Assembly (NCBI RefSeq): GCF_011602485.2
Contig: NZ_CP050022.2
Span: 372,001-436,000 of the forward strand
Source: Bradyrhizobium sp. 1(2017)
Lineage (GTDB): Bacteria > Pseudomonadota > Alphaproteobacteria > Rhizobiales > Xanthobacteraceae
Length of the DNA: 64,000 bases
Reading direction: 5' to 3'
Part shown: positions 4,542-9,880 of the stretch, piece after piece
How the letters are laid out: every line of letters begins with the position of its first letter
How positions within the stretch are numbered: the first letter of the stretch is position 1
The notes under the pieces: model-generated
Told to the model about the DNA's origin: nothing
Seen by the model: only the letters and a program-made list of their open reading frames with translations
Database searches by the model: none
Program-made: the position numbers and the translations under genes

Positions 4542-4682
4542 GTCGTCCCGGCGAAGGCCGGGACCCATACCGCGTGACCTATCGGAGATAATTCGATGGC
4601 AGTACCGCGCGGCGATAGGCAACTGCGAGTCTTCGCCAAATCACTTGCTGTGGGGATGGGTCCGGCCTTCGCCGGGACGACA
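4542..4682. repeat. REP-like inverted pair downstream of the MBL hydrolase
   Basis: Left unit gtcgtcccggcgaaggccgg plus gacccataccgcg (4542-4574) and right unit atgggtcc plus ggccttcgccgggacgac (4656-4681) form an inverted pair. The left unit contains ggccgggaccca (4556-4567), identical to the sequence into which the IS110 element at 8.6 kb inserted. It is therefore a perfect unoccupied target. The pair fills the gap between two convergent genes. Confidence 0.8.
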
Positions 4683-8564: not shown

Positions 8565-8621
8565 TCTGCCGTCATTCCACAACTGCATCCCCAACGTCGT
8601 CCCGGCGAAGGCCGGCAACTG

Positions 8622-9563
8622 TTATGTCGGCTTGGCCTTCAGATAGGGTTTCCTGTCTCGCATCATGGCATTGAGCACGGTTAGCAGCTTCCTGGCTACG
8701 GCAATGAGGGCGAGCTTGGCTGGTTTGCCGGCCTGTCGCAGTCGTGCGTAGAAGACCTTGAACGGATCGGCCCGGCGGACCGCGTTGAGAGCGGCCATGT
8801 AGAGGGCATCCCGGACGCGCTTTCGGCCGCCGGCGATCTTGCGTTTGCCACGGAAAGCGCCGCTATCGACGTTGAAGGGGGCGAGGCCGGCGAGCGCCGC
8901 GATCTGCTTGGCTCCGACATGCCCGAGTTCCGGCATCTTCGCGATGAGCTGCATGCAGGCCACGGGACCCACGCCAGGCAGTGAGCGCATCAATCGCGCA
9001 TCGTCCGCGATCTCCGGCTCGGCCTTGATCAGTGCGCTGATGTCGGCCTCGATCTCGGCGATCTCGCTGTCGAGGACCTCAATGAGGCGGCCGATCCGAT
9101 CGGCCATGGCGTGGCTATCGGCCTCGCTTCGCCGGTTCTTCTCCTGCGCGCGCATGAGGACCAACTGGTCTCGCCGTTTTGCAAGCCCTGCCAAGGCATT
9201 GCGGGCGGGATTGGCGACCTGCTCGGTGGCCGGCTGCATGGCTCGCGCAAAAGCTGCCAGCATCCGCGCATCGATCGGATCAGTCTTGGCGAGCTGGCCG
9301 CTGGCACGTGCGAAGTCGCGCGCCCGGGCCGGGTTGATCCGGGCAAAGCGGATTCCGGCCTGGCTCAGCACCTCGCGAAGTTCGAGGTCATAGACGCCCG
9401 TGGCCTCGAAGACGACCAGCACATCGCATCGCCAACGCGCCGCGATCTGTGTGATGGCCTGCGTCGCGTTGGCGATGCGCTCCGGAAAGGCCAAGCCTTC
9501 ATCGAAGATATCGAGATATTGTTTGGAGACGTCGATTCCGACGCAACGAAGGGGTATGATCAC
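8622..9563 (-). CDS. IS110-family transposase (DEDD recombinase)
   Basis: The 313-residue protein has the RuvC-like DEDD domain at the N-terminus, with Asp11 (GIDVSK), Glu53 (VFEATG), Asp95 and Asp98 (KTDPIDAR). The Transposase_20 domain follows at the C-terminus (SLPGVGPV near 194, IAALAGLAPFN near 221), with Ser234 in VDSGAFRGKRKI as the probable nucleophile. All catalytic residues are present and the frame is intact, so it may be active. Start GTG 9563. The stop codon lies only 6 bp from the element's right end, so the C-terminal codons double as the donor end. The non-coding region is upstream, as in the IS621-like group. Confidence 0.95.
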   Translation of the reverse strand: MIIPLRCVGIDVSKQYLDIFDEGLAFPERIANATQAITQIAARWRCDVLVVFEATGVYDLELREVLSQAGIRFARINPARARDFARASGQLAKTDPIDARMLAAFARAMQPATEQVANPARNALAGLAKRRDQLVLMRAQEKNRRSEADSHAMADRIGRLIEVLDSEIAEIEADISALIKAEPEIADDARLMRSLPGVGPVACMQLIAKMPELGHVGAKQIAALAGLAPFNVDSGAFRGKRKIAGGRKRVRDALYMAALNAVRRADPFKVFYARLRQAGKPAKLALIAVARKLLTVLNAMMRDRKPYLKAKPT

Positions 9564-9693
9564 GATGCCTGTCCCTGTGATGCGAGGTCTGTTGGCGCAG
9601 CCTCGTGCAACTGTTCAGGTTGGTAATGGAACGGGCGGGAGGCCGAGCCGGCTCACGGCGTCAAGCGCCAAGGACCCAACGGCTTCCCGCCCA
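9564..9693 (-). ncRNA. candidate bridge RNA of the IS110-family element
   Basis: The non-coding stretch upstream of the transposase folds into two guide loops. Loop 1 is closed by GGGCGGGA/TCCCGCCC (9685-9692 with 9633-9640). It holds TGGGTCC (9678-9672, minus strand), identical to the left target, and GCCGG (9652-9648 region), complementary to the right target plus core. Loop 2 has a CGAGG/CCTCG hairpin (9601-9605 with 9583-9587). It is flanked by AACAGTTGC (9615-9607), identical to the element's transposase-distal end, and CACAGG (9579-9574), complementary to its other end plus core. This is the left/right target and left/right donor guide arrangement described for IS621-type bridge RNAs. 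RNA ends are inferred. Confidence 0.85.
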
Positions 9694-9698
9694 ACCCC

Positions 9699-9722
9699 AT
9701 TCTGACAGACTTCCAAGACACA
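9699..9722 (-). promoter_or_regulatory. half promoter completed only in the excised circle
   Basis: On the transposase strand the left end reads TGTGTCTTGGAAGTCTGT followed by CAGAAT (9704-9699), a plausible -10. Joining the element's ends through the CC core gives ...AGTTG-CC-TGTG..., which contains TTGCCT exactly 17 bp before CAGAAT. The chromosomal flank now in place (GGTCCC-TGTG) does not supply TTG. A start about 7 nt downstream of the -10 falls at 9692, the first base of the target-loop stem. IS621 is known to use such a junction promoter; here it is inferred from sequence. Confidence 0.6.
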
Positions 9723-9880
9723 GGGACCCATAACCACAGGGAGCAGTTTGGCGACGACTGTCAATTATACTCTGCATTGGGACGAGCACGGTGCATCACC
9801 GATAGATCACGCGGTATGGGTCCCGGTCTTCGCCGGGACGACACCGAGGGTTTGGATGAGCCGTAAGAAAAAGCGCGCGC

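Follow-up and report, generated by a model that had tools for sequence, protein, structure and literature searches.

Background

The closest described system is IS621 of Escherichia coli, an element with an IS110-group transposase and, in its left end, the gene of an RNA whose target loop precedes its donor loop; the descriptions in PMC11208160 and PMC11208158 also cover the sense in which the loops pair, a promoter at the junction of the ends and a target in REP sequences. The element considered here shares these traits, its RNA gene being a predicted one and its junction promoter-like only. It differs from IS621 in its target and donor sequences, in its right donor guide (CACAGG), whose pairing is contiguous here and described as discontiguous there, and in its core dinucleotide, which is CC here and CT there. 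The CT core of IS621 is described as highly conserved, with the second T almost invariant, and the cores AT, GT and TT as working (PMC11208158, PMC11208160); the natural target-motif analysis described in PMC11208160 kept only guides with a CT core.

The targeting of REP sequences by IS110 elements has been in print since at least 2006: ISPpu9, ISPpu10, ISPa11 and ISRm19 are described as IS110-family elements lying, like ours, in REPs (PMC1525189; Tobes and Pareja 2006). That paper predates bridge RNAs, and the name Bradyrhizobium does not occur in its text. Natural retargeting is described for the seekRNA pair ISEc11/ISXne4, whose transposases are 72% identical; that pair differs from our element in belonging to the IS1111 group, with a reversed order of guides and its RNA at the other end (PMC11187229).

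Bridge RNAs, the targeting of REPs and natural changes of target are thus on record, and what the present work adds is a branch of elements with a CC core. IS621-type recombinases, whose least flexible part is the core, are under development as RNA-programmed DNA inserters. A CC-core lineage that exists in nature in many copies, and whose guides match at both DNA partners, would extend the range of usable targets, and it provides an evolutionary handle on the residues that recognise the core. The series of natural elements further shows the target changing while the donor loop is largely kept.

Results and discussion

The element and its ends

The window is a stretch of 64,000 nucleotides of Bradyrhizobium DNA, and all coordinates refer to it; its named relatives, 80-93% identical in the best segment, all belong to this genus. 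A first-pass annotation had placed an IS110-family element at 8614 to 9724, and this is where we find an intact IS110-group element, on the minus strand: its boundaries are exact, its 1107 bp lie between two CC cores, and a second copy, letter-identical over the 1107 bp, lies at approximately 5.44 Mb of the 7.86-Mb chromosome. The two insertion sites have TGGGTC-CC-GGC adjoining the element in common, and differ at the next base on each side. The features needed below are the following.

4558..4567, minus strand: intact TGGGTCCCGG site, one of 195 in the genome (pattern count)
8611..8613, minus strand: right target GGC, running on into the remainder of the REP palindrome (flank comparison)
8614..8615, minus strand: core dinucleotide CC, right junction
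8616..9722, minus strand: IS110-group element, 1107 bp between cores, in two identical genome copies
8622..9563, minus strand: transposase/recombinase, 313 aa, GTG start (NF033542, PF01548 and PF02371, IS621 8wt6)
9564..9722, minus strand: left end, predicted bridge-RNA gene (fold z-score and covarying structure in 28 sequences)
9574..9579, minus strand: right donor guide CACAGG, complementary to CC-TGTG (core and left end)
9607..9615, minus strand: left donor guide AACAGTTGC, identical to the right end and a core C
9648..9652, minus strand: right target guide GCCGG, complementary to CC-GGC (core and right target)
9672..9678, minus strand: left target guide TGGGTCC, identical to the left target and a core C
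9723..9724, minus strand: core dinucleotide CC, left junction
9725..9730, minus strand: left target TGGGTC (flank comparison at the clade A junctions defined below)

The transposase scores 205 bits against NCBIfam NF033542, with a cut-off of 140, and passes the cut-offs of Pfam PF01548 and PF02371. A sequence search against the PDB retrieves IS621 (8wt6, E 4.3e-36) and, as the second-best and sole other match at E <= 0.001, ISCro4 (E 4.5e-35), the likeness to ISCro4 being one of sequence alone. On this sequence and family evidence, the assignment of the predicted protein to its family can be taken as settled. The DEDD residues and the catalytic Ser, all of which had been reported present, are D11, E53, D95, D98 and S234, and are kept in 37 of 37 aligned proteins. 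The non-coding ends are unequal, with 159 nt at the left, upstream of the transposase, and 6 nt from the stop codon to the right end; a long non-coding end upstream of the transposase places the element in the IS110 group rather than in IS1111.

Relatives and their junctions

Matches at E <= 1e-40 occur in 56 of 265 genomes of the genus. Clade A consists of all 71 listed matches of approximately 74% identity or more, from 16 genomes; since no more than eight candidates per genome were scored, the clade A copies number at least 71. To these were added loci hand-chosen from a longer list, 15 for clade B and 34 for clade C, together with seven named plasmid loci from rhizobia, taken from 1230 plasmid records that matched, and 22 loci of other genomes from an order-wide search in which 11 of 397 genomes matched, our own included. 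The 1230 plasmid records encode a relative of less than 60% identity, and 635 of them are from Klebsiella and 354 from Escherichia.

In clade A, the core is CC at all 71 left junctions and at the right junctions of all 70 copies whose right end was found, one copy being truncated (L148 in genome G011, cut after 236 residues, with an intact left end). The left target is TGGGTC in 66 of the 71. The right target is GGC in 45 copies, GGA in 17, GGG in 6 and another triplet in 2, so that its last base is loosely kept, with A or G for C in 23 of 70. Over the 11 target positions, the 70 copies with both flanks divide into 43 that match throughout, 24 that miss one, two that miss two and one that misses six; the last, L143, has its mismatches at the 5' junction and may reflect an off-target insertion or an assembly problem. 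The 70 complete copies amount to 39 distinct sequences, with up to six identical copies of one sequence.

In clade B, CT stands at all 14 readable left junctions and at all 15 right ones; in clade C, it stands at all 34 left junctions and at all 30 right ones that were located, the right-core counts leaving out L162 to L165, whose right ends were not found. The left core of the other 29 loci is CC in 23, CT in 5 and TC in 1. Differently programmed IS110 systems can share a host: genome G241 carries clade A together with clade C1, and G146 clade A together with clade B.

Four guides and a predicted fold

The first-pass annotation had read four guides in the left end, matching target and donor. 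Each of the four motifs matches exactly and occurs once in the 159-nt left end, and their order and pairing sense agree, as had been stated, with the published IS621 scheme. The same annotation judged such a coincidence very unlikely, and this holds for the set: when the left end was shuffled 20,000 times with its dinucleotides preserved, the four guides never appeared together in order. Taken singly, the left target motif is found in 525 of 20,000 shuffled left ends, the right target motif in 6505, the left donor motif in 21 and the right donor motif in 1931. Because of these counts, the guide set is strong evidence, and the matches of 5 and 6 nt are weak alone.

The predicted fold of 9570-9697 has a z-score of -2.79. 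An alignment was made of 28 left ends, hand-picked from 62 distinct ones and containing none from clade C, from which RNAalifold predicts a fold of 24 pairs; double-sided changes occur in 17 of them. When pairs between guides are removed, 19 pairs are left, of which 14 show double-sided changes. Standard pairs fill 93.3% of the paired cells of this fold, against 79.7% in shuffled alignments and 32-52% when the fold is slid along the alignment; its covariation score is 0.427, against 0.177 in shuffles (none of 500 as high) and at most 0.123 when slid, an advantage over the slid versions that comes in part from the fold having been derived from the alignment on which it was scored. A covariance structure prediction for the upstream region, which the first-pass annotation had proposed, thus yields a conserved, covarying fold, and the left end has a predicted two-loop RNA with a covarying structure, as in a bridge RNA of the IS621 type. 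A search of Rfam with four loci returned no family at the gathering threshold; an sX15 match in the window region, at 24.2 bits for a cut-off of 55, was set aside as noise.

Guides against flanks and ends

If the left end encodes a bridge RNA, related elements with other guides should be found at other targets. The comparison was made on 148 of the 149 loci, the clade B locus L150 being dropped for want of a left flank. The loci fall into 18 guide types, each represented by consensus flanks, and the guides of each type were compared with its own DNA and with that of every other type.

The left target guide scores 6.50 of 7 on its own DNA and 3.99 on that of others (5.56 versus 3.25 of 6 without the core), the right target guide 4.78 versus 2.91 of 5 (2.83 versus 1.81 of 3 without the core), and the left donor guide 6.61 versus 5.92 of 7, with no permutation out of 100,000 reaching any of these values; the right donor guide scores 3.94 versus 3.45 of 4, with one permutation in 100,000. 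These counts are not strict probabilities, because the windows are anchored on this element's own guides, 7 of the 18 types are single loci, and the types are related to each other, with targets shared by A and A', and by B1, B2 and E. The type's own DNA is the best or tied match in 16 of 18 types for the left target guide, with or without the core, in 16 for the right target guide (17 without the core), and in all 18 for each donor guide. For two types, the own left target is neither best nor tied in the left guide window, and the right target guide likewise has two such types.

When the left target guide was allowed to slide freely over 88 nt, the own match was 123 of 144, for a permutation mean of 100.5, and own DNA was best or tied in 15 types rather than 16. 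The sliding match separated own from other DNA less well, and the comparison was therefore repeated in the fixed windows reported above. Two types call for care in reading: C1 combines the commonest left end with the right ends of other copies, since the right end of L162 was not found, and type M has ambiguous boundaries.

The cleanest pair is formed by C1 and C2, which have nearly the same donor loop and different target loops at correspondingly different targets. Their transposases are 72.6-75.8% identical in six comparisons. Both have the donor guide ACAGTTGC, with ATAGTTGC in the C1 left end of L162; the target loop of C1 is ACGCCCC, next to the flank ACGCCC-CT, and that of C2 is TCGTGCTC, next to TCGTGCT-CT. 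Across the 148 loci and 18 types, then, all four loop guides covary with the flanks and ends of their elements, which is what the first-pass annotation had suggested looking for, and guides that covary with target and donor are a mark of IS621-type bridge RNAs. Many C1 targets, among L162-L195, lie within a longer shared sequence, in some of the form ..CATCCCGC..ACGCC-CT-CT..GCGGGATG.., which looks like another palindromic repeat.

It could be argued that the left end makes a regulatory RNA instead, acting as an antisense or as a 5' leader that controls the transposase. ISPpu9, an IS110 element in REPs, is described as having two small RNAs, Asr9 and Ssr9 (PMC8450116). Such a role would leave the covarying target and donor matches unexplained, and we consider it highly improbable as a replacement for the bridge RNA; both roles could nevertheless coexist.

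In two of the 148 elements, L225 (G327) and L217 (G383), the left flank is identical to the element's own target loop over 20 of 20 bases. The insertion point of each is the left target guide of another element like it, and so lies within a predicted bridge-RNA gene. The remainder of the interrupted copy follows on the right of L225 and is absent there for L217. Three of the five type H copies, namely L217, L226 and L234, have a longer left flank, ATGCCCGTGCAC, in common, and therefore may lie in a small repeat.

The REP target

An intact repeat had been noted near the element, and is present as TGGGTCCCGG at 4558-4567 on the minus strand. The genome contains 195 sites of this pattern and 10 of the reversed pattern, and many of the listed sites are inverted pairs approximately 80 bp apart. 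All 19 genomes searched within the genus, our own included, contain TGGGTCCCGG, 49 to 207 times each, against 8 to 23 for the reversed pattern. The palindrome had been said to offer many safe landing sites; many they are, and "safe" is a reading of the position between two ORFs.

The flanks of the element were searched for in 31 genomes, our own included, and were found in relatives. In 10 of the 10 relatives fetched, the orthologous gap lacks the element; in seven, it contains a REP, of the TGGGTCCC or TGGGTCCT type. In one relative, L200 (G031), the orthologous REP is TGGGTCCTGG, with CT in place of CC at the core position.

One might suppose that the protein itself reads REP palindromes, the left end being a mere leader and the guide matches relics or chance. 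By a pattern test, the return arm of the REP is indeed found to the right of 66 of 70 clade A copies, to which near-REP arms seen by eye can be added in two of the four misses (L090 and L122), and REP targeting is described for the IS3, IS4, IS5 and IS256 families (PMC1525189). However, the clade A copies include at least one, L097, that lies where no REP arm is recognisable and yet fits the target at 10 of 11 positions, and the left target guide tracks the left flank over 18 types, including C1 and C2 with proteins 73-76% identical. We hold recognition of the palindrome by the protein to be extremely improbable.

The preferred reading is thus that of an IS110-group element with a predicted bridge RNA in its left end, by which the recombinase is very probably guided to a REP palindrome and, in it, to a site centred on CC. 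The sequence itself shows the ends and cores, the four guide matches and how the guides covary with flanks, the fold with its covariation, the presence of the target in many copies, and the catalytic residues. Its guides match, and relatives with other guides lie at other matching sites; the element is therefore likely a working RNA-guided inserter. From its sequence we infer expression and binding of the RNA, excision, strand exchange and current activity, in the following manner. The element would excise as a circle, whose joined ends would create the promoter-like TTGCCT-N17-CAGAAT, reading into the left end. Loop 1 of the RNA would then pair with TGGGTC-CC-GGC in an empty REP, and loop 2 with AACAGTTG-CC-TGTG at the junction of the circle; strand exchange by the recombinase would take place next to the CC that both have in common. 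Similar pairs of promoter boxes across the joined ends score higher in the circle than in the integrated form in 12 of 18 types and tie in 6, a comparison made with no random control; a junction promoter formed on circularisation is suggestive only.

Six target patterns were also counted in the hosts of eight elements. The idea that each CC-core element follows the commonest REP of its host is only partly true, and was not kept as a rule: the element's own programmed target is the most abundant in four of the eight (G000 with 195, G489 with 143, G644 with 213, and G461 with 201, where the control is high at 78), second in G493 (68 versus 82) and G407 (41 versus 42, control 26), and third in G149 and G383.

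The CC core

The CT core of the IS621 type is absent from clade A, as the junctions given above attest; a CT core is a conserved trait, and no criterion of the family. The guides follow the core: CC-core types have GG, and CT-core types AG, where both right-hand guides face the core. This reading, made by eye in the windows of the guide comparison, applies to 17 of the 18 types, type M being the only one to break the rule. In the 17, target core, donor core and both right-hand guides change together.

From the sequence, the crossover can be located no more closely than within or before the common CC, and the core might accordingly not be CC: strands could be exchanged one base further left, the second C being part of the REP. 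Target and donor would then share no dinucleotide, and the GG of the right-hand guides would lose its partner. We regard this shifted crossover as unlikely, and under either placement the base just to the left is C, not T, at 71 of 71 left junctions.

Returning to a true CC core, the protein tree has one clade, of support 100/99, that contains the 15 CC rows, two of them of type M, along with K, whose core is CT, and a further M row, whose core is TC. The core label requires two changes on the tree, against 9.2 in shuffles, none of 500 being as low, and CC has a single origin in 6% of 200 bootstrap trees. The 19 CC rows differ from the 15 CT rows at five positions of the alignment. One of them is R249, 15 residues past the catalytic Ser, present in 19 of 19 CC rows and in none of the 15 CT rows; it is a candidate for the new core specificity, and shared ancestry alone could explain all five positions.

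What appears to be new is thus the CC core, in this element and in most of its nearest alphaproteobacterial relatives. The listings from our searches of the bridge-RNA, IS110, REP and core literature contained no report of a CC-core lineage or of IS110 self-insertion; they held nothing on Bradyrhizobium, IS110 and REP together, and on core dinucleotides nothing beyond the IS621 work. It is tempting to conjecture a longer history, which we consider evenly poised between right and wrong. In an alphaproteobacterial branch of bridge recombinases, the core would have passed from CT to CC, both cores and the right-hand guides changing in step. This would have opened the CCGG base of the REP stem; mainly the left target guide would then have been rewritten for the repeat of each host, and the guide gene itself would have become targetable.

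One element from another family of the order, L215, has the left target guide TGGGTC of clade A, to which it is not sister on the tree. Its host has 143 TGGGTCCCGG sites, and its guide may represent either retained or convergent programming.
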